This document shows positions 5,561 to 60,831 of a stretch of DNA of 64,000 nt, in pieces; within the stretch, counting starts at the first letter, position 1; the number at the start of each line of letters is the position of its first letter. The notes beneath the pieces were generated by a model that was not told the DNA's origin, did no database searches, and was given only the letters and a program-made list of their open reading frames with translations. The DNA is from Gilliamella sp. wkB171. GTDB taxonomy: Bacteria > Pseudomonadota > Gammaproteobacteria > Enterobacterales > Orbaceae. Location of the stretch: assembly GCF_001693755.1 (NCBI RefSeq), contig NZ_LYST01000048.1, forward strand, positions 1 to 64,000, given 5' to 3'. Both the position numbers and the translations under genes were made by a program.

Positions 5561-5590
5561 TTTGCTAATTGAGTTAGTTCAATTAGCAAA
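5561..5590. terminator. Perfect 12-bp hairpin after lysO, possible weak terminator
   Basis: TTTGCTAATTGA (5561-5572) and TCAATTAGCAAA (5579-5590) form a perfect 12-bp stem with a 6-base loop. No U-rich tail follows on the plus strand, so it may be a weak terminator or an RNA-processing hairpin. The 580-base gap 5503-6082 otherwise holds only the operator-like sites upstream of dhaM. Confidence 0.4.
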
Positions 5591-5828
5591 GGACAGGATT
5601 AAATTAGCTGGTCATTTGTCTAAATATTAAATAGTTTTTAAATTCTTCTAAGCATCAACATCAACTTATTCATTCCATTACTAAGTTTTAAAAGCAATTT
5701 ATTTATATTGTTTTGAAACTATCAAAAGTAGCAAATTAAGCTAGATTACCCGTGTAACTGTAAATATTGCATAGGGTGATGCTTTTTATCTTATTAGCTA
5801 ATCAATAATTGAATCTTTTGTTTTGCAT

Positions 5829-5867
5829 GTAAACTTATGCTCATTTTAACAAAATGGTTTTGAACAT
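5829..5867. promoter_or_regulatory. Candidate operator of the dha cluster, shared with the rpiB-like gene
   Basis: The 18-mer AACTTATGCTCATTTTAA at 5832-5849 recurs with a single mismatch (C to T at the ninth base) at 57031-57048, upstream of the RpiB-like gene. A half-site TGAACAT follows at 5861-5867. SorC-family regulators bind imperfect palindromes, and a SorC-family gene ends this cluster, so it is the natural candidate binder. The shared motif is seen directly; the regulator assignment is inference. Confidence 0.5.
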
Positions 5868-6082
5868 TTTTTTTACATCATCTATCAATCTGTTAACGAT
5901 ATTATTTTTCATATATCACGCTAATATAGTTAATTATTCTATTTTATTTTGCTATCAAAATTATCACTATCTAAAAGTTAGATCTGAATCACAAATTTAT
6001 TATAAAACAATTTCCGCCTTAATTTTATTCGATATAATTGAACAAAAGATTGTTAATGAGACATATGTTCAAAGGGGTAAGC

Positions 6083-6466
6083 ATGATTAGTATTATTTTA
6101 GTCTCTCACAGTAAAAAAATTACTGATGGATTAAAAGAAATGATCGAAGAGATGGTCGATTCAACCGGTGATGTAAAAATTTATTCAGCAGGCGGAACAG
6201 AGGATGGACGATTAGGAACAGATTCAGTTGCGATTTATAACATCATCGAACAATCAAAAGATCACAAAAATATACTGGTATTTGCTGATATAGGTAGTGC
6301 CATTTTAAGCACAGAAACCGCTATTGATCTTATCGAAGATGAACAATTAAGAAAAAAGGTAACGTTAGTTGATGCTCCCCTTGTAGAAGGCGCATTTGTC
6401 GCGTCAATACAAGCCATGGTTGATGAGGATGTTGAAGGTATTTTAGCTGAACTACAAAATATTTAA
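6083..6466 (+). CDS. dhaM: Dihydroxyacetone kinase phosphotransfer subunit, single-domain DhaM
   Basis: DhaM is the PTS-type phosphoryl carrier that rephosphorylates ADP bound to DhaL, so ketose phosphorylation draws on phosphoenolpyruvate through EI and HPr. The 127-residue protein is one EIIA-mannose-like domain with the phosphorylatable His9 in IILVSHSKKITDGL and the block FADIGSAILSTETAIDL. It lacks the HPr and EI domains of the three-domain E. coli DhaM and so resembles the Gram-positive type. The start at 6083 follows an AAAGGGG ribosome site; an upstream in-frame ATG at 6038 would add 15 residues outside the family. It is the first gene of the cluster. Confidence 0.9.
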   Translation: MISIILVSHSKKITDGLKEMIEEMVDSTGDVKIYSAGGTEDGRLGTDSVAIYNIIEQSKDHKNILVFADIGSAILSTETAIDLIEDEQLRKKVTLVDAPLVEGAFVASIQAMVDEDVEGILAELQNI

Positions 6467-6481
6467 AAAGTGAGCGTTAGG

Positions 6482-6955
6482 ATGAAATTTTTTCGAAGCT
6501 TTGTGGGTTATTGTATCGCTGGAATGATTGTAATGTCAGTGTGGTCACAATTAGGTACTTACGGCATTTTCGGTGGTTTTTTGGCGGCGGTAATCATTAT
6601 TGGTCCAATGTGGTATATGAATCATTATATCAATCTGACTGGCAATGAAGATGATGCTGCTTTTGTTGATATGGGACTTGCCATTGCAGTATGTGGCATT
6701 ATGCGTGATACCTTTATTCAAGGTGGACATGCATTTGTCTCTTCTTTACCTACCATATTGCTTGTGATTGTCGGCGCTACTTTAGGTGGTATTACTGCTG
6801 CTTTCATTGAAAAAGATATGGCGAAGAAAACAGAATTTATTAATGAGAATCCAAGAGAACCTGGTTTAAGACGATCTGATTTTGAAAAGTTGAAAGAAGC
6901 AAAAGAAAAGATCTTGCGTAGCAAACAAATCAAAGTTTTTCAAAAAAAGAAATAA
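6482..6955 (+). CDS. Membrane protein of the dha cluster, Lin0368-type putative glycerol transporter subunit
   Basis: A 157-residue membrane protein with about three hydrophobic segments (near residues 5-22, 27-45 and 80-105) followed by a basic C-terminal tail of about 45 residues. From context and general appearance it resembles the small membrane proteins (lmo0350/Lin0368 type) encoded beside dhaKLM in Listeria, which are annotated as putative glycerol transporter subunits. I recall that family from its neighbourhood, not from an alignment. A GTG at 6470 is an alternative start; AGTGAG before the ATG at 6482 is the better-placed ribosome site. The gene lies 15 bases after dhaM. Transport of a C3 or C4 polyol or ketose is inferred. 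Confidence 0.7.
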   Translation: MKFFRSFVGYCIAGMIVMSVWSQLGTYGIFGGFLAAVIIIGPMWYMNHYINLTGNEDDAAFVDMGLAIAVCGIMRDTFIQGGHAFVSSLPTILLVIVGATLGGITAAFIEKDMAKKTEFINENPREPGLRRSDFEKLKEAKEKILRSKQIKVFQKKK

Positions 6956-6977
6956 TTAGCTGAAATATAGGGAGCAA

Positions 6978-7331
6978 ATGATGATGTCAATTAAATTGGC
7001 TATTGCAACAATAATCGGTGGTTTTATCTTCCCTTTTGTTATACGCATGGCATGGGGGCGTATGGTTGACAATTGGGGACCAATTGGTGGTTGGATGGCG
7101 GCAGCATTTATTGTCGGTACTGTATGGTGCATTAATCATGGAATAGCAACGCCAATGATTACACAAAGTGGTTCAGTATGGGTCGATCAAGGGTTAGCCG
7201 CTGGTGTTGGGATTTGGGTAGCCTCAGCTTTAACCGGTGGAAACAAACGTAAATCAGTTAAAAATATTGTTGCAGCAGTCTGTGCAGGTATTGTTGGTGG
7301 GTATGTATTATCACTTTTTTTAGTGAATTAA
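6978..7331 (+). CDS. Second small membrane protein of the dha cluster
   Basis: A 117-residue protein with about four hydrophobic segments, including ATIIGGFIFPFVIRMAW and AAVCAGIVGGYVLSLFLV. It probably forms a pair with the preceding membrane protein, as similar pairs do in Listeria dha clusters. GGAG at 6971 precedes three consecutive ATG codons (6978, 6981, 6984), so the exact start is uncertain by one or two residues. Pairing and transport function are inferred from position; no catalytic motif can be seen. Confidence 0.7.
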   Translation: MMMSIKLAIATIIGGFIFPFVIRMAWGRMVDNWGPIGGWMAAAFIVGTVWCINHGIATPMITQSGSVWVDQGLAAGVGIWVASALTGGNKRKSVKNIVAAVCAGIVGGYVLSLFLVN

Positions 7332-7372: not shown

Positions 7373-8371
7373 ATGAGAAGATTAATTAATGATGGCTATG
7401 ATGTTGTAGAAGAGATGCTAGAAGGTTACTGCTTAGCGCATAGTGAATATGTTGAATTAAAAAAAACGTGTAATCGCGTAGTCGTAAGCAAAAAAATCAG
7501 TACAGAGCCAAGAGTGAGAATAATTATTGGCGGTGGTTCAGGACATGAACCCGCATTTTTAGGTTATGTTGGCAAAGATTTTGCCGATGCGGCAGCAGTC
7601 GGTAATGTGAACACTTCACCTTCTCCTGAATATTGCTATGAAGCAGTAAAAGCGGTTGATTCTGGTAAAGGATGCTTATTTGTTTATGGTAACTATGCTG
7701 GCGATGTTATGAACTTTGATATGGGCGCTGAATTAGCGGCTGAAGAGGGTATCCGAGTTGAAACTGTAACAGTAACTGATGATATCTATTCTTCAAAAAA
7801 CATTAGTGATCGCCGTGGGGTAGCGGGTGATGTATTTGTGTTCAAAGTCGCTGCCAGTGCTGCCGCCAAAGGTTATGACTTAGATAAAGTTAAAGCTTTA
7901 ACCGAAAAAGCTAATGCCAATACTTATTCAATGGGCGTTGCACTATCATCTTGTACATTACCGGTTACAGGTGAGGTGATTTTTGAAATGCAAGAGGGTG
8001 ACATGGAAGTTGGCATGGGCATTCATGGTGAACCCGGTATTGAAAGAACTAAGCTAGAAAAGGCCGATGTTGTTGTTAGCCAATTAATCGATCATCTTTT
8101 ACAAGACTCCAAAATAAAAGCCGGTGATGAAGTGCAATTACTGATTAATGGATTAGGTGGTTTGGCATTGATGGATCAGTATATTTGTTACCGCAAAGCA
8201 CATCTTTTATTAGCACAAAAGGGCATTAAAATCTATAAACCACTAGTGGGCAATTACGTGACTTCGATGGATATGGTGGGGATGTCGATCTCTGTTATCA
8301 AGTTAGATGATGAACTAAAACAGCTATTAGACCATCCATGTGATGCGCCTTATTTTAAAATTGCTTATTAA
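7373..8371 (+). CDS. dhaK: Dihydroxyacetone kinase subunit DhaK
   Basis: DhaK binds dihydroxyacetone (or a related ketose such as erythrulose) as a hemiaminal on a histidine; DhaL supplies the phosphate. The 332-residue product has family length. The substrate-binding His218 is in GMGIHGEPGIER, and IIIGGGSGHEPAFLGYVG near the N-terminus is the other conserved block. GAGGTG precedes the ATG by 6 bases. DhaL follows after 18 bases. Related DhaK proteins in erythritol and threitol pathways phosphorylate erythrulose instead of dihydroxyacetone, and the two isomerases of this regulon make that worth considering here. Confidence 0.93.
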   Translation: MRRLINDGYDVVEEMLEGYCLAHSEYVELKKTCNRVVVSKKISTEPRVRIIIGGGSGHEPAFLGYVGKDFADAAAVGNVNTSPSPEYCYEAVKAVDSGKGCLFVYGNYAGDVMNFDMGAELAAEEGIRVETVTVTDDIYSSKNISDRRGVAGDVFVFKVAASAAAKGYDLDKVKALTEKANANTYSMGVALSSCTLPVTGEVIFEMQEGDMEVGMGIHGEPGIERTKLEKADVVVSQLIDHLLQDSKIKAGDEVQLLINGLGGLALMDQYICYRKAHLLLAQKGIKIYKPLVGNYVTSMDMVGMSISVIKLDDELKQLLDHPCDAPYFKIAY

Positions 8372-8389: not shown

Positions 8390-9040
8390 ATGAGCGCCCT
8401 GATGCTAAATAAATCTTATTTTATCGAAACATTTAAAAAAATCGCCGATATGGTCGAAAAAAATCGTGACCACCTCAGTAAATTAGATTCTGACATTGGC
8501 GACGGTGATCATGGTATTAATTTAACCATAGGTTTTCGTGAAGTAGAAAAGCAATTGCCACTGTTATCTGACTCAACAGCAGATATTGCTGAATTAATGA
8601 AGAAAGTAGGAATGATTTTATTGAGCAAAGTCGGCGGAGCATCAGGGCCTTTATATGGTAGTTTTTTTATGAAAATGGCAAACCATACAACTGGAAAACA
8701 AGCTGTAACATTCAAAGAGTTTTGTCAAATGTATCAAGATGGCGTTGAAGCTGTCCAAATGCGAGGAAAAGCCGAACTTAATGATAAAACAATGATAGAT
8801 GCACTGATTCCGGGTCTTAAAGTATTAAACAATTATAAAGAAGGTGATGACCCTATAAAAACGTTAGAAATTTGCGTTGATGAAATGAAAAAAGGTTCTG
8901 ATTTAACTATTCCATTGGTTGCAAAAAAAGGGCGATCCATGCGATTAGGTGAACGAGCTATTGGACACAGGGATGCGGGATCTGAATCAGCTTGGATGAT
9001 TATGAATGAATTCTTACAGCAATTAAAACTCGAGAAGTAA
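8390..9040 (+). CDS. dhaL: Dihydroxyacetone kinase subunit DhaL
   Basis: DhaL is the ADP/ATP-binding subunit that passes phosphate from DhaM to the ketose held by DhaK. The 216-residue protein keeps the three magnesium-binding aspartates of the family, Asp33, Asp38 and Asp40, in LDSDIGDGDHG. The nucleotide-contact blocks GGASGPLYGSFF and the C-terminal GERAIGHRDAGSESAW are also present. A strong AAGGAG ribosome site lies before the start, 18 bases after dhaK. With dhaM at the head of the cluster the PEP-dependent kinase is complete. Confidence 0.93.
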   Translation: MSALMLNKSYFIETFKKIADMVEKNRDHLSKLDSDIGDGDHGINLTIGFREVEKQLPLLSDSTADIAELMKKVGMILLSKVGGASGPLYGSFFMKMANHTTGKQAVTFKEFCQMYQDGVEAVQMRGKAELNDKTMIDALIPGLKVLNNYKEGDDPIKTLEICVDEMKKGSDLTIPLVAKKGRSMRLGERAIGHRDAGSESAWMIMNEFLQQLKLEK

Positions 9041-9122: not shown

Positions 9123-10235
9123 ATGGATAAGGTTTTTGTTAGTCCTAATAGATATGTACAAGGTAAAGATTTGCTGACTCGTGCAGAAGCATACATCAAA
9201 CCCTTTGGGACCAATTTTTTAATCCTAGCAGATAAGAATATTTGGAATATTGCAGCCAATCAACTAGCTGATTCACTCGAAAAAGCCGAATTATCGATTA
9301 CTAAAGCCATTTTTAACGGCGAATGTTCAATGGTAGAAATTAACCGATTACTTGATGAGTTTAAATCAAAAAAATTTGATGCAATTATTGGTGTAGGTGG
9401 TGGTAAAACACTAGATACGGCTAAAGCACTTGCAGCCAAATATAATATACCTAAAGTTTGTGTACCAACTACGGCATCAACCGATGCACCAACGGCTAAA
9501 GTTTCAGTCGTTTATACTGAAGATGGTGTTTTTGACTTTTTATGGCACCATTATAAAAATCCAGATTTGGTATTAGTTGACACTCGAGTGATTGCAAATG
9601 CACCGGTAAGATCGTTAAAATCAGGTATAGCTGATGGGCTGGCAACTTGGGTTGAAGCCAGAACCTCCATTCGCAGTTGCCATAAAACTGATGCTGGTGG
9701 TATAGCAACGATTGCTGGTGAAGCAATTGCCAGAGAGTGTGAAAAAACCATATTTGAGTATGCATTACTTGCTGTTGAATCGAATGAAAAGAAATTAGTT
9801 ACCCCAGCGTTAGAAGCTATTGTTGAAGCTAATACTTTACTAAGTGGTCTTGGTTTTGAAAATGGTGGTTTAGGTGCAGCTCATGCTATTCATAATGGTT
9901 TTACTGCCGTATCAGGTGATGTGCATCATCTAACGCATGGTGAAAAAGTGGCATATGGCACAATTGCTCAACTTGTGCTAGAAGGTCGACCAATTGCTGA
10001 GCTTGAAAGGTATATCGATTTATATATTAAGTTGGATTTACCAATCACTTTAGAACAAGTGCATTTAGATAAAATTACAGAAGAAGAGTTTCAATTGATT
10101 GGCGAAAAAGCCATTGCTCCAGTTGAAACTATCCATAGTCTGCCTTTTGCGGTGACGGCTGATGATGTTATACAAGCTATCAAAGCAACAGATTATTATG
10201 TGAAGAGTTATAAAAAACGTTTAGGTATCGCATAA
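9123..10235 (+). CDS. gldA: Glycerol dehydrogenase family protein
   Basis: GldA-type enzymes are NAD- and metal-dependent dehydrogenases that oxidise glycerol to dihydroxyacetone and also act on other vicinal diols. The 370-residue product carries the NAD-binding block VGGGKTLDTAKALA and the metal ligands Asp171 (SGIADGLATW), His254 (GAAHAIHNGF) and His272 (LTHGEKVAYG), spaced as in characterised GldA. Its place directly after dhaL suggests it supplies the ketose for DhaKLM. A comparable dehydrogenase (GolD) sits in the Listeria gol cluster. The true substrate, glycerol or a C4 polyol, cannot be told from sequence. A large hairpin follows before the next gene. Confidence 0.9.
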   Translation: MDKVFVSPNRYVQGKDLLTRAEAYIKPFGTNFLILADKNIWNIAANQLADSLEKAELSITKAIFNGECSMVEINRLLDEFKSKKFDAIIGVGGGKTLDTAKALAAKYNIPKVCVPTTASTDAPTAKVSVVYTEDGVFDFLWHHYKNPDLVLVDTRVIANAPVRSLKSGIADGLATWVEARTSIRSCHKTDAGGIATIAGEAIARECEKTIFEYALLAVESNEKKLVTPALEAIVEANTLLSGLGFENGGLGAAHAIHNGFTAVSGDVHHLTHGEKVAYGTIAQLVLEGRPIAELERYIDLYIKLDLPITLEQVHLDKITEEEFQLIGEKAIAPVETIHSLPFAVTADDVIQAIKATDYYVKSYKKRLGIA

Positions 10236-10450: not shown

Positions 10451-11230
10451 ATGAAAAAAATATTCATAGGCACCAGCTGGAAAATGAATAAAACCTTAGC
10501 CGAAGCATTGTTATTTTGTGAACAACTAAAAACTTACTACCCCGAAGATTTAAAAAGTCATATCCAACCGTTTATCATACCTCCTTTTACTTGTGTTCGT
10601 GATGTGGCGGAATACTTATATCAACACAAAATAAATTGCTTAACCGGTGTCCAGAATATGCATTTTGAAGAAGCGGGTGCTTTTACCGGTGAAATATCTC
10701 CAATTATGGTAAAAGATACCGGTGCTAAAATAGTTGAATTAGGGCATTCTGAGCGCCGTGAATTTTTTGGTGAAACCGACATGACAATAAATAAAAAAGT
10801 TCATGCTGCACTAAAACACCAATTAACACCGTTAGTTTGTGTTGGGGACAGCGCTCAAGAAAAATCTTGGGGCGTCTCGAGTGAAACTGTTGTAAAGCAG
10901 ATGAAGATTGCATTGTCAGGAATTGATCATAATCAAGCGAGTCAGGTTATTATTGCTTATGAACCAATATGGGCGATTGGTGAAAAAGGCGTTCCGGCAA
11001 CACCTGAAGGGGCTGAATTTATTCATCATAACTTACGCTTAGCGCTCTCTGATCTCTATGGTTCAGAAGTAGCTAATAATATGATTTTACTCTATGGTGG
11101 TAGTGTCAATCTTGAAAATTCGACCCAATTAATTACTCAGCCCAATATTGATGGCCTATTTATTGGTCGCAGTGCATGGCAAGCAACAGGTTTTTGTAAT
11201 ATATTATCCGCTATAAATCAGCAACGATAA
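10451..11230 (+). CDS. TIM-like isomerase, probable L-erythrulose-1-phosphate isomerase (EryH/LerI type)
   Basis: The 259-residue protein has the triosephosphate isomerase fold: catalytic Lys11, His99 in ELGHSERR, and Glu171 in AYEPIWAIG. It departs from true TpiA at two sites. The usual Asn of NWK is Ser9 (GTSWKMNK), and loop 6 reads WAIGEKGVPAT instead of the canonical WAIGTGKTAT type. It also has QNMH and ends GLFIGRSAW. As I recall them, these features match Brucella EryH and mycobacterial LerI, which isomerise L-erythrulose 1-phosphate to D-erythrulose 4-phosphate. A second, operon-specific triosephosphate isomerase, as proposed for the Listeria gol cluster, is the alternative. The SorC-type regulator follows after 22 bases. 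Confidence 0.8.
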   Translation: MKKIFIGTSWKMNKTLAEALLFCEQLKTYYPEDLKSHIQPFIIPPFTCVRDVAEYLYQHKINCLTGVQNMHFEEAGAFTGEISPIMVKDTGAKIVELGHSERREFFGETDMTINKKVHAALKHQLTPLVCVGDSAQEKSWGVSSETVVKQMKIALSGIDHNQASQVIIAYEPIWAIGEKGVPATPEGAEFIHHNLRLALSDLYGSEVANNMILLYGGSVNLENSTQLITQPNIDGLFIGRSAWQATGFCNILSAINQQR

Positions 11231-11252: not shown

Positions 11253-12227
11253 ATGGATAGATTTGATGATAAACAAGAAGCAGAACTACTCACCGAGATA
11301 GCTGTTGCCTATTATGAGTATGAACAAACTCAAGAAGAGATAGCACAGCGATTTGGCATTTCGCGTATTAAAGTCGGTCGCTTGTTAAAAAAAGCTAGAG
11401 CTGAAGGGATTGTTGAAATCAATGTCAAATATCATCCAATATTTAGTTCACGGATAGAACAACAATTTGTTAACCATTTTGGTATTAAGCGTGCACTGAT
11501 AGCTTTAGATCATCAAGATGAAGACGAACAGCGACGGCAAGTTGCGGCACTTGTTTCTAACTATTTATCAAGTAATTTAAAAAATGGTATGACTGTTGCG
11601 GTAGGGCAAGGTCGAAATGTTGCTGCTATTGCCAGTCATGTTGGGGTGTTTCCTGAAAAACAATGTAAATTCATTTGTGGTATTGGTGGAACGCAACGAG
11701 TTGGTGAAATTATTGATGCTGATCATATTAGTCGAAGCCTAGCTAGAAAATTTAATGCCAGCAGTGAAACGCTTTATGCACCAGCATATGTCGAAAACCG
11801 CGAGCTTAAACACGCTTTTATGCAAAATCGTGTCATAAAAGATACGTTAGAACGTGCATCTAAAGCTGATATTGCTTTAGTTGGTTTAGGGGATATGAAC
11901 GAAAATTGTTATATGGTGCAATTAGGTTGGTTTACCCCACAAGAGATCACCTATGCGACATTAAATCAAGGGGTAATTGGTGATATTGCTGGCTATGGTT
12001 TTTTCGATATAAATGGCAACCCAGTTGATACGGTGATGAATGATCGAGTCATTGGTTTAAGTATTGAAGAGTTACGTAATATTCCCTGCGTAATTGCTAT
12101 TGCCTCAGAAAACACCAAATCAACCGCTATTTTAGGGGCGTTGAGATCAGGAGTAATTGATATTATTGCTACCAGTGCATCGAATGCGAGAACAGTGCTG
12201 AGTTTGCAGCAAAATACAGCTAAGTAG
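11253..12227 (+). CDS. SorC-family transcriptional regulator of the dha cluster
   Basis: The 324-residue protein has an N-terminal helix-turn-helix (residues about 20-55, TQEEIAQRFGISRIKVGRLL) and a C-terminal sugar-phosphate-binding domain with VAVGQGRNVAAIA, ICGIGGTQRVGE and DIALVGLGDM. This is the SorC/DeoR-like architecture that includes EryD, the erythritol-operon repressor of Brucella. It ends the dha cluster and is the best candidate to bind the motif shared by the dhaM and rpiB-like upstream regions. The effector is probably a phosphorylated C3 or C4 ketose; that is inference. Confidence 0.88.
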   Translation: MDRFDDKQEAELLTEIAVAYYEYEQTQEEIAQRFGISRIKVGRLLKKARAEGIVEINVKYHPIFSSRIEQQFVNHFGIKRALIALDHQDEDEQRRQVAALVSNYLSSNLKNGMTVAVGQGRNVAAIASHVGVFPEKQCKFICGIGGTQRVGEIIDADHISRSLARKFNASSETLYAPAYVENRELKHAFMQNRVIKDTLERASKADIALVGLGDMNENCYMVQLGWFTPQEITYATLNQGVIGDIAGYGFFDINGNPVDTVMNDRVIGLSIEELRNIPCVIAIASENTKSTAILGALRSGVIDIIATSASNARTVLSLQQNTAK

Positions 12228-53879: not shown

Positions 53880-54122
53880 ATGTCAGTCCTAACTTTAAAT
53901 CACCTCGCCTTAGGGCAGGAGGCGGTTATATCACGTCTATTGCCTGAATCGTTGCCATTTCGTCGGCGACTGTTAGCTATGGGTGTCACGCCAGGTTGCA
54001 GAGTTTTAGTGATTCGAGCCGCACCATTAGGCGATCCACTGGAAATTAAAATACGCGGTTTTTTATTATGTTTGCGGCGTAGTGAAGCGGCAACTATCGA
54101 AGTTATGGAGGTTGAGTCATGA
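53880..54122 (+). CDS. feoA: Ferrous iron transport protein A
   Basis: FeoA is a small cytoplasmic SH3-like protein needed for FeoB-dependent ferrous iron uptake. The 80-residue product shows LPESLPFRRRLLAMGVTPGC, then VIRAAPLGDPLEIKIRGFLLCLRRSEA-type ending (residues about 45-70). TAGGAGCACA is a well-placed ribosome site. It overlaps feoB by four bases (ATGA). Confidence 0.94.
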   Translation: MSVLTLNHLALGQEAVISRLLPESLPFRRRLLAMGVTPGCRVLVIRAAPLGDPLEIKIRGFLLCLRRSEAATIEVMEVES

Positions 54123-56455
54123 ACGTTGCACTCATTGGTAACCCAAATTGTGGTAAAACGACGCTGTTTAATTTACTTACTGGTGCAAAACAGCGAGTCG
54201 GTAATTGGCCGGGTGTGACTGTTGAGCGTAAAACCGGTGTGCTTAATTATCAAAATAACCAATATACTATTGTTGATTTGCCCGGCACCTATGCTATTGA
54301 ATCTGATCCGTTGTCAGTGTCACAAGATGAGTTAGTCACGCGTCAATTTGTCTTGAGTGAAAAAGCGAGTGTAATAATCAACATTATTGATGCCACCAAT
54401 TTACAACGTAGCTTATATTTGACATTACAATTAATTGATTTACAGCTGCCAATGGTTGTTGTCTTAAATATGACTGATGCGTTAAAAATGACAGGTGAAC
54501 AAATTGATACTGAAGAGTTGTCACATATACTCGGTTGTCCAGTAATTGCTATATCATCTAAGAAAAAAACGGGCATTGATTTATTATATCAACAAATTGA
54601 GAAAATTAGCTCAACTAAGCAAGTGACTAAATCTGCAATGAATACCTTAGGTCATGATCAGGAAGCAGTAATTACTCGTTATATGGACGAATTGCCGCCA
54701 AACAGTCAGGTTCATCAATTTAATCGTTGGCAATTGATTGATGCTTTATTAGACGGCTCACGTTATCAATTAACCCCATGCGAATCAGAAAAACTTAACG
54801 CTTGTCGATTATTACTTTCTGCATGGTGTGATTATGAAATTGATGTCGCGTTAGCCAGTGCTCGTTATGACGTGATTGATAATGTGTGTAAAAACGTTAT
54901 TAATAAACCTCGGGAGCTAAGTTCTACTTTTTCTGAAAAGCTCGATAAAATTGCGCTAGGACGGATAACAGGTATACCTTTCTTTTTGCTAGCGATGTAT
55001 GCTATGTTTACAATCGCTATCAATTTTGGTTCAATTTTTATCGATTTTTTTGATGGTTTTTTTTATACGATTTTTGTTGAAGGTCTATCTTATCTATTGC
55101 ATCAACTCGATGCGCCTATCTGGATGAATATTATTTTAGCTGACGGCATTGGAACGGGTATTAAGACGGTATCAACCTTTATTCCGGTTATTGCAGCTAT
55201 GTTTTTTGTCTTATCTTTCTTAGAAGATTCTGGGTATTTAGCCCGTGCGGCAATGATGGTTGATAGAGCCATGCGCTGTATTGGGTTGCCTGGTAAAGCT
55301 TTTGTGCCAATGCTGGTGGGTTTTGGCTGCGGGGTACCTGCGATTATGGGAACCCGAACACTAGAAAGTACACGTGATCGTATTATGTCCATTTGTATGA
55401 TTCCTTTTATGTCTTGTGGTGCAAGGTTACCTGTTTATGCCTTATTTGCTGTTATCTTTTTTCCACGTCATGCATCAATGGTCGTTTTTTCTTTATATTT
55501 GCTTGGTATATTCGTTGCACTCGCTACCGGTTATATTTTAAAACTAACCTTATTAAAAGGTCAGCCAACCCCTTTTATTATGGAAATGCCTGTTTATCGA
55601 ATTCCGACATTACAAAGTATGTTTAAATTAACTTGGCAAAGGTTAAAAAGTTTTATTGCTAAAGCTGGTAAAGCCATTGTAATTATGGTGACGGTACTGA
55701 GTTTACTAAATTCATTGGGCACTGATGGTCGATTTGGACATGAACAATCTAATGATTCAATACTTGCTGCATTTAGTCAAACCATTACACCTGCACTTGC
55801 ACCGATGGGGCTTGATAAACAAAACTGGCCAGCAACAGTTGGGCTTTTTACGGGTGTTTTTGCCAAAGAGGCTGTTATTGCGACATTGAACTCACTTTAT
55901 TCTATGGATAACCAACAACTCCAACGCGATAACTTCGATTTTAATAACAGTATTAAAGCTTCAATATTATCGATTCCTAAAAATTTACTCGATTTTACTG
56001 ATACTATTTTAGATCCATTAGGATTCTCATCTTTGAAAGAAGATATTGATGATATTGAAAATGATTTAGCAATTGACTCTACTACAGTTGCTAAGATTAA
56101 AACTTCATTTATGACGTACAATGTTGCCATTGCCTATTTGATTTTTATCCTACTTTACACGCCTTGTGCGGCAGCATTGGGGGCGATTTATCGTGAAGCG
56201 GGAATTAAATGGATGGTATTTGTTGCCCTGTGGACATTTATAGTAGGTTGGCTGGTTGCGACGATATATTATCAGATAACTTTATTAGGGCAATCAGTCT
56301 CGGCAATTTATTGGTTGATAGGGTGTGCTGCATTTATTGGTACAATGATTTTATTAATGCGTTGGTTTGGGCAATATTCGTCTTTAAGTATATCGGCCAA
56401 ATCACATTACGATGCTACAAATGGATCTCGCTGCTGTGATCCATCATTAAAGTGA
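54119..56455 (+). CDS. feoB: Ferrous iron transporter FeoB
   Basis: FeoB is the inner-membrane Fe(II) permease with a cytoplasmic G domain. The 778-residue product has full enteric length. G1 is GNPNCGKTTLFN at residues 7-18, then GNWPGVTVERKTG (G2), DLPGTYAIES (G3) and VVLNMTDAL (G4). The membrane part from about 285 contains the Gate motifs MLVGFGCGVPAIMGTR and MIPFMSCGARLPVYALF, whose cysteines are implicated in iron passage. feoC follows after about 50 bases. Confidence 0.96.
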   Translation: MNVALIGNPNCGKTTLFNLLTGAKQRVGNWPGVTVERKTGVLNYQNNQYTIVDLPGTYAIESDPLSVSQDELVTRQFVLSEKASVIINIIDATNLQRSLYLTLQLIDLQLPMVVVLNMTDALKMTGEQIDTEELSHILGCPVIAISSKKKTGIDLLYQQIEKISSTKQVTKSAMNTLGHDQEAVITRYMDELPPNSQVHQFNRWQLIDALLDGSRYQLTPCESEKLNACRLLLSAWCDYEIDVALASARYDVIDNVCKNVINKPRELSSTFSEKLDKIALGRITGIPFFLLAMYAMFTIAINFGSIFIDFFDGFFYTIFVEGLSYLLHQLDAPIWMNIILADGIGTGIKTVSTFIPVIAAMFFVLSFLEDSGYLARAAMMVDRAMRCIGLPGKAFVPMLVGFGCGVPAIMGTRTLESTRDRIMSICMIPFMSCGARLPVYALFAVIFFPRHASMVVFSLYLLGIFVALATGYILKLTLLKGQPTPFIMEMPVYRIPTLQSMFKLTWQRLKSFIAKAGKAIVIMVTVLSLLNSLGTDGRFGHEQSNDSILAAFSQTITPALAPMGLDKQNWPATVGLFTGVFAKEAVIATLNSLYSMDNQQLQRDNFDFNNSIKASILSIPKNLLDFTDTILDPLGFSSLKEDIDDIENDLAIDSTTVAKIKTSFMTYNVAIAYLIFILLYTPCAAALGAIYREAGIKWMVFVALWTFIVGWLVATIYYQITLLGQSVSAIYWLIGCAAFIGTMILLMRWFGQYSSLSISAKSHYDATNGSRCCDPSLK

Positions 56456-56506
56456 TCATAAAACTTATTGGAGAAGAGCAAGCCTAGCGTTTGTCTTTTT
56501 ACTCAT

Positions 56507-56746
56507 ATGTTAATTTCGATTCGAGATTATATTCAATTAAAAGGGCGAGCAAATCTACAAGATATTGCTCGCTATTTTCATTTACCTGAAAGCGCAGTTG
56601 AACAAATGATGTTGTTTTGGATTAAAAAAGGCAAGATAAAGCTCTATATTATGGAGGATTCAAATGCTTGTGGAACAAAAAAATGTGTCAGTTGTGTAGG
56701 TTGTGACCTAACTGGTCAACGCATTTATACTTGGGCATCATCTTAA
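56507..56746 (+). CDS. feoC: FeoC-like iron-sulfur winged-helix protein
   Basis: FeoC is a winged-helix protein that stabilises or regulates FeoB. From ATG 56507 the product is 79 residues: LISIRDYIQLKGRANLQDIA forms the wing-helix part, and four cysteines in CGTKKCVSCVGC give the iron-sulfur motif. The start is set by match to E. coli FeoC. A TTG at 56468 could extend it by 13 residues and lies beside a GGAGAAG sequence, so the true start is not certain. Confidence 0.85.
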   Translation: MLISIRDYIQLKGRANLQDIARYFHLPESAVEQMMLFWIKKGKIKLYIMEDSNACGTKKCVSCVGCDLTGQRIYTWASS

Positions 56747-57027
56747 ATAACTTCAGTTAATTTATCCTTTTTCAACGAGATGTATCAACAGATAAAATAA
56801 ATTTGCGTCATTTCATTTTTTCATGCTTTTAGCGTGTATCAAATGTTTTTATGTTTAACCTTTGATTGTTTTTGTGAAAGAAATTCAGGTTATCAAGGCT
56901 TTTAAGTAAAAAATATTCAATAATTTTAGTCTTCTATCCATCAATAGCTTAATAAATATTTTATTTTCGAGACCTTTATCACATAACTGAAATAATTTAT
57001 ATTTAAATAATAACAAATGATATTAAT

Positions 57028-57048
57028 ATGAACTTATGTTCATTTTAA
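57028..57048. promoter_or_regulatory. Candidate operator of the rpiB-like gene, shared with the dha cluster
   Basis: ATGAAC-TTAT-GTTCAT (57028-57043) is a perfect inverted repeat of six bases around four, and AACTTATGTTCATTTTAA (57031-57048) repeats the dha-cluster upstream motif with one mismatch in 18. It stands 23 bases before the rpiB-like start. The gap 56747-57070 holds nothing else recognised. Confidence 0.55.
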
Positions 57049-57070: not shown

Positions 57071-57526
57071 ATGAAATCTATTGCAATAGGTGCAGATGAT
57101 GCTGCTTTTGAGTTTAGAAATAGTATTGTTGAATATTTAACTAAGCAAGGTATTGAGCTCGTTGATTATAGTAGTGATAAGCAGTCAGAAAATAGTTTAT
57201 ATCCTGATGTTGCTAATGCTGTTGCATCTGCTATTAAAGCCGGAAAACATGAGCGAGGTATTTTAATTTGTGGAACTGGAATTGGTGTAGCGATTGCTGC
57301 CAATAAAGTTCCCGGTATCCGCGCCGCTCAGTGCCATGATGTTTATTCGGCTGAACGTGCCAGAAAGAGTAATAATGCACAGATTATGACTATGGGGGCT
57401 AGAGTCATCGGTGTAGAATTAGCGAAAAAGCTCGTACAAGCATGGCTAGAATCGGAATTTGAAGGTGGCGGATCAACGGCTAAGGTTGAACGAATCTGCT
57501 ATTACGATAAGTTATATTCAAAGTAA
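57071..57526 (+). CDS. RpiB/LacAB-family isomerase, probable erythrulose-4-phosphate isomerase (EryI/DerI type)
   Basis: A 151-residue RpiB-family sugar-phosphate isomerase. It keeps the catalytic cysteine (Cys67 in ICGTGIGVAIAANKVPGIRA), followed by HDVYSAERARKSNNAQI and MGARVIG. The canonical N-terminal CDHxG motif of ribose-5-phosphate isomerase B is here ADDAAF, so the usual His is Asp10. As I recall them, the central blocks are nearer to Brucella EryI and to the RpiB-like protein of the Listeria gol cluster than to RpiB. AAGGAG lies before the ATG. Conversion of D-erythrulose 4-phosphate to D-erythrose 4-phosphate is inferred; ribose-5-phosphate isomerase is the alternative. Transaldolase and transketolase follow. 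Confidence 0.78.
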   Translation: MKSIAIGADDAAFEFRNSIVEYLTKQGIELVDYSSDKQSENSLYPDVANAVASAIKAGKHERGILICGTGIGVAIAANKVPGIRAAQCHDVYSAERARKSNNAQIMTMGARVIGVELAKKLVQAWLESEFEGGGSTAKVERICYYDKLYSK

Positions 57527-57739: not shown

Positions 57740-58690
57740 ATGAGTCAATTAGATGAATTCAAAAAATTAACCGTTGTAGTTGCTGATACTGGTGATATCG
57801 ATTCAATTAAACAATTTTCGCCTGAAGATGCAACAACTAACCCTTCTTTAGTACTTAAAGCCGCTCAACTTCCTCAATATCGTCATTTAATCGATTCTGC
57901 TGTTGAAACTGCTAAAAAATTAGGTGGCAGTAAAGAGCAACAATTGATCAATGCTTGTGATCAAGTTGCTGTAAATATAGGCGCTGAAATTTTAAAAATT
58001 ATTCCAGGACGCATCTCAACAGAAGTTGACGCTCGCCTGTCATTTGATAAACAAGGTTGTATTGAAAAAGCTCGCCGAATTATCGAACTTTATAAACAAA
58101 AAGGGATCGATAAATCAAGAATCTTAATTAAAATTGCTTCAACCTGGGAAGGTATTAAAGCTGCTGAAGTTTTAGAAAAAGAGGGTATTAATTGTAATTT
58201 AACGTTACTCTTTTCATTTGCACAAGCGCGAGCCTGTGCAGAAGTGAATGCCTTTTTAATTTCACCTTTTGTCGGTCGTATTTATGATTGGTATCAAGCT
58301 AAAAAACCTATTGAACCTTATGTCGCCGATCAAGATCCTGGGGTTGTTTCGGTTCGTAATATTTATAATTATTATAAACAACATGGTTATAAAACCATTG
58401 TTATGGGCGCAAGTTTCCGTAAAGTCGACCAAATCTTAGCTTTAGCTGGTTGTGATAGATTAACTATTTCGCCTAATTTGCTATCAGAAATGCAACAATC
58501 TAACGCGCCAGTAGTACGAAAATTAGATCCTAATCAAACCATTGTTGCGCGCCCTACATTAATGACTGAAGCTGAATTTAGATGGCAACATAATAGTGAT
58601 GCAATGGCGGTTGAAAAATTAGCTGAAGGTATTCGTGCTTTTGCTGTTGATCAAGGTAAATTAGAAGACATGATTGGTGCACTTCTCTAA
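57740..58690 (+). CDS. tal: Transaldolase
   Basis: Transaldolase moves a dihydroxyacetone unit between sedoheptulose 7-phosphate and glyceraldehyde 3-phosphate, giving erythrose 4-phosphate. The 316-residue product is a TalB-type enzyme with the Schiff-base Lys131 in [11 protein letters not shown], the conserved [20 protein letters not shown], and [14 protein letters not shown]. It stands between the rpiB-like gene and transketolase, with a strong terminator just after it. Confidence 0.96.
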
Positions 58691-58824: not shown

Positions 58825-60831
58825 ATGAATGCAATAACTTTATCTCACCGCGAACTCGCGAATGCGATAAGAGCATTAAGTATGGATGGCGTACAAAAAG
58901 CAAAATCAGGTCATCCAGGGGCTCCTATGGGAATGGCCGATATGGCAGAAGTTCTTTGGCGAGGTTTTTTAAAACATAATCCAACTAATCCTCATTGGGC
59001 AGACCGTGACCGATTTGTATTATCAAATGGCCATGCGTCAATGTTGATTTATAGCTTATTACATTTAACTGGCTATAATGTCACGATAGATGATTTGAAA
59101 AATTTTCGTCAATTGCATTCAAAAACGGCAGGGCATCCTGAATATGGTCATCTACCAGGCATTGAAACCACAACAGGACCATTAGGTCAAGGTATCGCTA
59201 ATGCGGTTGGTATGGCAATTGCAGAAAAAACATTAGCGGCCCAATTCAATAAAGCAGGTCATAACATTGTTGATCATCACACTTATGTATTTATGGGTGA
59301 TGGCTGTATGATGGAAGGTATTTCTCATGAAGTCTGTTCATTAGCGGGCACCCTTAAATTAGGTAAACTTATCGCGTTTTATGATGATAATGGTATTTCA
59401 ATTGATGGTGAAGTGGAAGGTTGGTTCACTGATGATACTGCAAAACGTTTTGAAGCTTACGGCTGGCATGTGATTCGTGGCATTGATGGTCATGATGCGA
59501 AAGCGTTAGCTGAAGCTATCGAACAAGCACAAGCCGTAACTGATAAACCATCATTATTAATGTGTAAAACAATTATTGGTTTTGGTTCACCAAATAAGGC
59601 CGGTAGTCATGAAAGCCATGGTGCGCCATTAGGTGATGCTGAAATCGAAGCCACTCGCAAAGCATTAGGATGGACATACCCACCGTTTGAAATTCCTAAA
59701 GAGTATTATGAAGCTTGGGATGCAAAAACAAAAGGTCAGCAAATTGAACAAGAGTGGAATGCGCGTTTTGATGCTTATGCTAAAGCCTATCCTGAATTAG
59801 CGAAAGAGTTCAAACGTCGTGTTGAAGGTCAATTGCCAAATAATTGGCAACAAACAGCTAAAGATTTTATTGATAAATTACAAGCTAATCCAGCAACTAT
59901 TGCAACGCGTAAAGCTTCGCAAAATGCGATCGAAGCTTTTGCACCAGCACTACCAGAATTTCTTGGTGGTTCAGCCGACTTAGCACCAAGTAACTTAACC
60001 ATGTGGTCAGGCTCTAAAGAGATATTGGCTAATCCTGATGGCAATTATATTCATTATGGCGTGCGTGAATTTGGTATGTCAGCGATTATGAATGGTATTG
60101 CTCTACATGGCGGATTTATTCCATATGGTGCAACTTTCTTAATGTTTATGGAATATGCCCGTAATGCAGTAAGAATGGCTGCGTTAATGAAGATTCGTTC
60201 ATTATTTATCTATACCCATGATTCAATTGGTCTAGGTGAAGATGGACCAACGCATCAACCTGTTGAACAAATGGCTAGTTTGCGCGTTACTCCAAACGTT
60301 AGTACTTGGCGACCGTGTGACCAAGTTGAATCAGCAATTGCATGGCAATATGCAATTGAACGTAAAGATGGTCCAACAGCATTAATCTTCTCAAGACAAA
60401 ATCTTAAACAACAAGATCGTACAGCACAGCAATTAGCTAATGTTTATCGTGGTGGTTATGTTCTAAATGATTGTACAGGCACGCCAGATCTTATCATAAT
60501 TGCGACTGGCTCTGAAGTTGAACTTGCGGTAGAAGCTTATCATCAACTTACCCAAGCAGGTAAAAAGGTTAGAGTCGTTTCAATGCCTTCAACAGATGCC
60601 TTTGACAAACAAGATCCATCTTATAAAGAATCAGTTTTACCTTCATCAGTAACAGCAAGAATTGCTATTGAAGCTGGTATTAGTGATTATTGGTATAAAT
60701 ATGTAGGTCTAAATGGCAAAGTAATCGGCATGACAACGTTTGGTGAATCAGGACCAGCAGAGCAATTATTTAAAGCATTTGGTTTTACTGTTGAAAATGT
60801 AATTGCCCAAGCCAATAGTTTGTTAAAATAA
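58825..60831 (+). CDS. tkt: Transketolase
   Basis: Transketolase transfers two-carbon units with thiamine diphosphate in the pentose phosphate pathway, and can use erythrose 4-phosphate as an acceptor. The 668-residue product has family length. The N-terminal domain has [18 protein letters not shown] and the TPP/Mg motif [18 protein letters not shown]; the middle domain has [35 protein letters not shown] and RPCDQVE. GGAG lies before the ATG. It follows tal, as in several gammaproteobacteria. Confidence 0.97.

Follow-up and report, generated by a model that had tools for sequence, protein, structure and literature searches.

A SorC-family regulator and its 35-bp tandem operator probably unite a ketose kinase operon and an rpiB2-tal-tkt locus in Gilliamella sp. 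wkB171

Two gene clusters lying 51 kb apart in a 64,000-nucleotide stretch of the Gilliamella sp. wkB171 genome (NZ_LYST01000048.1, positions 1 to 64,000, hereafter the window; part of contig C48 of assembly G000 in our set) carry the same two-part operator, and this operator very probably belongs to one SorC-family regulator encoded in the first cluster. According to Pfam and NCBIfam profiles, this first cluster comprises dhaM, two DUF6905 genes, dhaK, dhaL, a gldA-like gene, a triose-phosphate isomerase paralogue (TIM2) and the SorC gene; the second comprises rpiB2, tal and tkt (Table 1). The fuller reading, in which a DeoR-type tetramer of the SorC protein represses both loci and these encode the parts of a single tetrulose-phosphate route, is judged likely. 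In the open-access literature searched, no earlier description of this regulon was recognised.

An earlier note on the window had proposed such a regulon from two similar strings, AACTTATGCTCATTTTAA at 5832-5849 upstream of dhaM and AACTTATGTTCATTTTAA at 57031-57048 upstream of an rpiB-like gene. As described there, the two 18-mers are identical at 17 of 18 bases, and the second lies within a perfect inverted repeat, ATGAAC-TTAT-GTTCAT (57028-57043), which is matched exactly nowhere else in the assembly (2.67 Mb, 59 contigs). The 16 bp around the motif on the dhaM side (GTAAACTTATGCTCAT, 5829-5844) differ from this palindrome at three positions. On its own, the 18-mer pair is at chance level and not significant. 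When pairs with members at least 1000 bases apart were counted on either strand, the window contained 23 distinct 18-mer pairs differing by no more than one base, compared with 9, 15, 16, 16 and 24 in five dinucleotide shuffles, and a claim of significance from the window alone was rejected on these counts. The 18-mer pattern with up to three mismatches matched three times in the window against a shuffle mean of 0.89, a count reached by 7 of 100 shuffles. It is conservation in relatives that carries the case for the regulon.

Table 1. Positions in the window of operators, promoter elements and genes at both loci
Feature	Position	Strand	Basis
CRP-like site (presumed)	5978-5993	+	TTAGATCTGAATCACA; conserved block in dhaM promoter alignment; centre about 60 bp upstream of inferred start
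O2, weaker upstream tandem operator of dhaM	5810-5844	+	TGAATCTTTTGTTTTG, 3 bp, GTAAACTTATGCTCAT; holds most of the site of the earlier note
-10 box of dhaM, TATAAT	6033-6038	+	TATAA in 10/10 aligned promoters
O1, principal tandem operator at dhaM	6038-6072	+	TTGAACAAAAGATTGT, 3 bp (TAA), TGAGACATATGTTCAA; promoter alignment
dhaM, phosphoryl-donor EIIA-man-type subunit of PTS-dependent ketose kinase	6083-6466	+	TIGR02364, 141 bits (cut-off 98)
Two paralogous small DUF6905 proteins	6470-6955, 6978-7331 (span 6470-7331)	+	PF21846 in both
dhaK-like kinase subunit, diverged from true DhaK	7373-8371	+	PF02733; TIGR02363, 366 bits (below cut-off 406)
dhaL-like kinase subunit	8390-9040	+	TIGR02365, 204 bits (cut-off 138)
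gldA-like polyol dehydrogenase, optional operon member	9123-10235	+	NF006941, 479 bits (cut-off 336)
TIM2, TIM paralogue	10451-11230	+	Best solved relative 11ef, 234.7 bits
Putative repressor of the two loci, a SorC-family regulator of the DeoR subclass	11253-12227	+	Pfam/NCBIfam; orthologue alignment
CRP-like site (presumed)	56968-56983	+	CGAGACCTTTATCACA; conserved block upstream of rpiB2
Tandem operator of rpiB2-tal-tkt	57009-57043	+	AATAACAAATGATATT, 3 bp (AAT), ATGAACTTATGTTCAT; 0 mismatches to family pattern
rpiB2	57071-57526	+	NCBIfam profile; orthologues of at least 77% in the same 13 genomes as TIM2
tal, transaldolase	57740-58690	+	Profile match; relatives
tkt, transketolase	58825-60831	+	PF00456, 565 bits

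Alignment of upstream regions of rpiB2 (n = 14, including G003) and dhaM (n = 10) revealed that the conserved unit consists of two palindromes with centres 19 bp apart. The idea of one SorC regulon is supported, with the difference that its operator unit is a 35-bp tandem and not a single 18-mer motif. Likewise, the site recognised at 5832 proved to be half of a weaker operator copy, O2, while the main dhaM operator, O1, had been missed. O1 overlaps the TATAAT box, stops 10 bases short of the dhaM start codon, and is recognisable by alignment in all ten dha promoters (diverged in G011) and by pattern, with up to two mismatches, in eight of them. O2 was found in seven of the ten, the exceptions being G011, G026 and G027; in those seven promoters, identity amounts to 0.80 and 0.72 in its two sites, compared with 0.33 across the linker of 3 bp and 0.37-0.38 in flanking sequence. 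Its matrix score is 9.2; the two main sites, themselves part of the training set, score 38.9 and 30.7. A phased loop of DNA joining O2 to O1 was also considered and found to be unsupported, because their distance varies from 199 to 211 bp (199, 205, 205, 206, 208, 211 and 211 bp, with 208 bp about the figure in this genome).

Around these operators, a promoter scan found no consensus -35 element for dhaM, and a scan for sigma-70 hexamers there yielded 4 against a shuffle mean of 5.5, with nothing above the shuffles; no promoter or terminator was found by scanning between gldA and TIM2, and no promoter was assigned to rpiB2. Each upstream region contains a conserved block which, by comparison with the CRP consensus, we take to be a presumptive CRP site, and the presence of such CRP-like sites upstream of both promoters suggests catabolite control. 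As for the neighbouring genes, a terminator-like 12-pair stem on the minus strand (5561-5590; 0.1 expected) closely follows the LysO-like gene ahead of the dhaM promoter region, and the rpiB2 promoter is immediately preceded by co-oriented genes for the ferrous iron transporter FeoB and a FeoC-like regulator (54119-56746).

When one mismatch or none was allowed, the full operator was confined to the two loci in the whole assembly (57012-57042 and 6041-6071), as judged by a pattern drawn from these and related sites; the motif is therefore not scattered over unrelated positions, and the same scan found no further regulon members. The regulon of this genome probably consists of just the two loci. 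Four additional places appear at two mismatches, of which C19:1674 and C39:220962 are inside ORFs, C39:218762 overlaps an ORF start and C21:52499 lies between two convergent ORFs. With a looser pattern allowing up to three mismatches, 41 matches were obtained against 21 for the reversed control (the control not being split by mismatch), so that further weak sites may exist.

The operator was traced through 44 Orbaceae genomes. Orthologues of the SorC protein, defined by at least 82% identity (other SorC matches reach at most 30%), were detected in 23 of these genomes, TIM2 orthologues (at least 70%) in 13, rpiB2 (at least 77%) in the same 13, and dhaK (at least 89%) in 10, the sets being nested within one another; G003 adds a diverged rpiB2 copy at 65%. 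Using the pattern AACAAAWGWT-N8-GAACNTWTGNNCA with up to two mismatches, matches were obtained in 22 genomes, all of them among the 23 that have the SorC orthologue, whereas the 21 that do not have it gave none (Fisher p 2e-11, a value that ignores genome relatedness); the reversed pattern, as a control, gave five matches over all 44. As these genomes are related, the contrast overstates independence. One-by-one inspection of the 37 pattern rows placed the site upstream of rpiB2 or tal in all 22 genomes; among these rows, G038:46797 precedes pdxA2-DUF1537, and G031:2467808 lies elsewhere, probably by chance. The one SorC genome missed by the pattern, G041, has a site before tal with a matrix score of 28.6. 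The operator is kept upstream of both loci in relatives, where its absence would have refuted the proposal of the earlier note, and it follows the regulator gene.

That it tracks SorC and not the enzymes can be seen in eight genomes (G006, G016, G017, G022, G037, G039, G040 and G042), which contain SorC without rpiB2, TIM2 or dhaK orthologues and nevertheless retain the operator before tal. Ten genomes that have no SorC orthologue possess other SorC-type proteins, and the operator is absent from them. In the 400 bp upstream of tal, a simple tandem score exceeded 18.0 in 0 of 21 copies from SorC-less genomes and reached at least 19.5 in 6 of 25 copies from SorC genomes; in the other 19, rpiB2 lies in between or the site is farther away or weaker. 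In G003 (L128), the rpiB2 gene looks degraded (65% identity, a shortened frame from the usual start) downstream of an intact operator, with TIM2 and dhaK orthologues absent, and this locus is possibly a regulatory relic. In G022 (C34:77876-78430), a decayed second tal copy with five stops is found between SorC and the intact tal.

Gene order in relatives also brings the loci together. In G026, a single stretch reads rpiB2-tal-dhaM-DUF6905x2-dhaK-dhaL-gldA-TIM2-sorC, and in G038 the order is TIM2-sorC-rpiB2-tal-tkt, so that genes split over the two loci of the window are joined; G043 has TIM2-sorC-tal-tkt. According to the earlier note, the enzymes of both loci stand together in one Listeria operon, gol.

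Beyond the Orbaceae, 69 loci (L281-L349, out of the best 80 of 193) were collected from Enterobacterales, Pasteurellaceae and Tolumonas. They are redundant and not independent, with many from Serratia, Pantoea and Erwinia, and three (L284, L315 and L344) are assigned only to Enterobacterales, of which L284 could be from Orbaceae. In these loci, SorC is accompanied by combinations of TIM2, rpiB2, dhaKL, pdxA2-DUF1537, tal and tkt. A palindromic 10-bp matrix built from Orbaceae sites picked out 37 site pairs exactly 19 bp apart in this set from the best 80 of 193, compared with an average of 0.0 in shuffles and 7 pairs at the next commonest spacing in the range 10-60; stricter thresholds left 34 and 13 pairs at 19 bp against 0.2 in shuffles. 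With the full matrix, 47 of the 69 loci (best 80 of 193) beat 20 shuffles and 22 did not. Forty-five of these 47 best sites are intergenic, where non-ORF sequence averages 12%, and in the same selection from the best 80 of 193 they face rpiB2 (18), pdxA2 (17), tal (1), SorC (1) or other ORFs (10), with 15 of the 47 within 250 bp of a locus end.

Taken together, these observations make it very improbable that the motif is a chance repeat or the site of a different, for example global, regulator. Although the 18-mer pair by itself is indeed at chance level, such an origin is at odds with the co-occurrence of the operator with SorC across genomes, the recurrence of the 19-bp geometry outside the family, and the restriction to two places in the assembly at one mismatch or fewer. 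More generally, a string match at chance level can be settled by tracing the presence of the regulator across genomes.

The SorC protein encoded at 11253 matches PF04198 (269 bits over residues 62-317) and has N-terminal HTH/Sigma70_r4-type matches. It scores 169 bits against the DeoR equivalog model, below the cut-off of 420, and is consequently placed in the DeoR subclass without being DeoR itself. The prototype of this subclass is Bacillus subtilis DeoR, which binds as a tetramer to ATTGAACAAAATTTCAATTACCAATTTACATATGTTCAA, needs both halves of it, and contacts DNA bases through R34 and R39 (PMC11229326, in part). In an alignment to 8r7y, and with a numbering offset of 5 that we inferred, these residues correspond to R38 and R43 of the SorC protein, neither of which varies among nine orthologues. 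Protein family, HTH type and a two-part operator are common to the two proteins, tetramer binding being that of DeoR (PMC11229326, in part). The half sites of the dra-nupC-pdp operator, TTGAACAAAA...ACATATGTTCAA, are nearly identical to those of O1, TTGAACAAAAGATTGTTAATGAGACATATGTTCAA, and in both systems TTGAACA-type half sites occur in two half-operators and the operator overlaps the promoter (PMC11229326, in part). The systems differ in spacing, which is 22 bp between centres in DeoR, as counted from the printed operator, versus 19 bp here, and in function: DeoR governs deoxyribonucleoside genes and binds deoxyribose 5-phosphate (PMC11229326, in part), whereas the predicted targets here are a ketose kinase, C4 isomerases and tal-tkt.

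With regard to the enzymes, two of the three kinase subunits, DhaM and DhaL, exceed the cut-offs of their DhaKLM equivalog models, while DhaK falls below its own (Table 1), with the DhaK of a PTS-dependent DHA kinase as its best solved relative (250 bits). The DUF6905 pair, a candidate that may act as ketose transporter, sits between dhaM and dhaK in nine of ten dha operons (not in G011). TIM2 is closest, among the matches listed, to L-erythrulose-1-phosphate isomerase, at 234.7 bits compared with 193 for the best solved triose-phosphate isomerase, and shares with it the stretches IGTSWKMNKTLAEA and IGRSAW. Another TIM, with 32-36% identity to TIM2, is present in all 44 family genomes (on contig C39 in this one), and TIM2 is probably not the housekeeping enzyme. 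What had been described as an rpiB-like gene is probably of the D-erythrulose-4-phosphate isomerase type and is followed by tal and tkt. This assignment of RpiB2 is made by context only, because the protein scores 183 bits against the curated D-erythrulose-4-phosphate isomerase model (cut-off 240; the model is named for rhizobia) and passes the RpiB subfamily model (196 bits against 135), its best solved relatives being ribose-5-phosphate isomerases.

These assignments leave room for the same regulon and operator to serve a dha locus devoted to dihydroxyacetone or glycerol, with gldA oxidising glycerol, the kinase yielding DHAP, TIM2 acting as an extra triose-phosphate isomerase, and rpiB2-tal-tkt serving pentoses. 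The kinase subunits that pass curated DHA-kinase models, the fit of gldA to a glycerol dehydrogenase subfamily, the fact that the nearest solved relative of DhaK is a DHA kinase subunit and those of RpiB2 are ribose-5-phosphate isomerases, and a TIM2 score of 379 bits against a triose-phosphate isomerase equivalog cut-off of 293 are all compatible with it. We nevertheless consider it unlikely: DhaK misses its equivalog cut-off, TIM2 is nearer to the tetrulose enzyme than to any solved triose-phosphate isomerase among the matches listed, and every family genome already has a second TIM. Moreover, gldA is complete in only five of ten dha operons (with a remnant in G035), whereas the dhaM-dhaK-dhaL-TIM2-sorC core is kept in all ten, which points to a ketose and not glycerol as the core substrate. 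The shared distribution of TIM2 and rpiB2 is likewise not predicted by a triose route.

Related four-carbon systems can be set beside these loci. The Brucella linkage of ery, tpiA2 and rpiB to which the earlier note appealed is borne out by the part of PMC3522698 drawn on here: in the eryABCD locus with deoR-tpiA2-rpiB, a SorC-type repressor, EryD (COG2390), has a TIM paralogue and rpiB in its vicinity, in a setting of four-carbon polyol catabolism. An operator for EryD was sought there without success, in that an EryD box could not be defined (PMC3522698, in part). Rhizobia have the module eryR-tpiB-rpiB (PMC3599248, in part). Unlike the Brucella and rhizobial ery systems, the operon in the window contains no eryA, eryB or eryC and has a DhaKLM-type ketose kinase instead, and because this enzyme set is absent, it is not filed as an ery operon. 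Another parallel is the LerI/DerI module, engineered in E. coli, in which L-erythrulose-1-phosphate isomerase and D-erythrulose-4-phosphate isomerase convert L-erythrulose 1-phosphate to erythrose 4-phosphate (PMC10733421, in part). The best solved relative of TIM2 is of the same kind as the first enzyme of that module. The present module is predicted from sequence, with RpiB2 below the curated DerI cut-off. TIM2 would fit LerI, and RpiB2, less surely, DerI. Given the RpiB2 score and the nearest solved relatives of RpiB2 and DhaK, the four-carbon nature of the substrate is no more than probable.

In the preferred reading, the SorC protein would act as a tetramer, a dimer of dimers, on the 35-bp operator of two imperfect palindromes with centres 19 bp apart. 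O1 would cover the -10 box and the start region of a predicted dhaM-DUF6905x2-dhaK-dhaL-gldA-TIM2-sorC operon and thereby repress it, with the weaker O2 about 208 bp further upstream and the third operator just before a predicted rpiB2-tal-tkt unit. Both loci would be repressed when the substrate is absent. The predicted repressor would leave the DNA in response to one of the sugar phosphates formed along the route, for which erythrose 4-phosphate or a tetrulose phosphate is the likeliest candidate. Release by a sugar phosphate is also the mode of DeoR and CggR. The PTS-driven DhaKLM kinase is expected to phosphorylate a ketose, for which L-erythrulose is the best guess; TIM2 would form D-erythrulose 4-phosphate and RpiB2 D-erythrose 4-phosphate, which transaldolase and transketolase could hand to glycolysis. 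If the two loci are halves of one route, their joint switching is explained.

An evolutionary variant is compatible with this explanation for the window and must also be weighed. The SorC regulator may primarily control tal-tkt, the genes of the non-oxidative pentose phosphate branch, in response to erythrose 4-phosphate or a related sugar phosphate, with the tetrulose genes recruited later; we regard this order of events as possible but not favoured. In five genomes (G037, G039, G040, G041 and G042), SorC adjoins tal-tkt without TIM2, rpiB2 or dha genes, the operator lies between SorC and tal in four of them (all but G041), and zwf-pgl are adjacent too in three, where the order is zwf-pgl-sorC-tal-tkt (G037, G039 and G040; zwf and pgl by Pfam in G037). 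Opposed to this, 66 of the 69 outside loci (from the best 80 of 193) have, within 6 kb, genes for a C4 isomerase, a kinase or pdxA2/DUF1537, and 47 of those 66 lack tal or tkt in that stretch; in the same set from the best 80 of 193, tal or tkt occurs in 21 of the 69 loci, stands alone in only 2, and none of the genes is found in L297. As C4 genes prevail in these loci, the tal-tkt-only state may be a reduction. In addition, tal carries its own conserved sequence block around position -75, whether or not the genome has SorC. In the Orbus-group loci L119, L121 and L122, zwf-pgl directly adjoin the SorC gene, and the neighbourhood of zwf-pgl and SorC suggests control of the oxidative pentose phosphate branch too; in the Orbaceae pattern scan, no match before zwf was listed at two mismatches.

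Genomes without the dha operon offer a further view of how these genes are combined. In several of their loci (L120 of G038, L127 of G043, L115 and L126 of G012, and L282-L295), TIM2 or rpiB2 is often located beside pdxA2-DUF1537, many such loci include a KdgT-like permease, and the tandem operator often precedes pdxA2. These arrangements suggest that pdxA2-DUF1537 is an alternative C4 acid-sugar entry module. In G038, an unusual fusion protein (L120:11903-13636), a DUF1537-type kinase whose N-terminal sorbitol-PTS EIIBC-GUT_N domain is joined to sugar-binding and nucleotide-binding domains, adjoins the KdgT-like permease.

Tentatively, SorC could be regarded as a dedicated sensor of four-carbon sugar phosphates in Enterobacterales and Pasteurellales, which would set tal/tkt capacity and exchangeable C4 entry modules through the 19-bp tandem operator. 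If this is true, the exchangeable modules would be dhaKLM-TIM2-rpiB2 here and pdxA2-DUF1537-TIM2-rpiB2 elsewhere, and SorC would regulate carbon entry into the pentose phosphate pathway, in a role comparable to that of CggR in glycolysis. For the SorC regulator of Orbaceae, other Enterobacterales and Pasteurellaceae, the analysis predicts an exact operator, and it assigns 'tpiA2', 'rpiB' and 'dhaKLM' paralogues that lack annotation to a single predicted tetrulose pathway.
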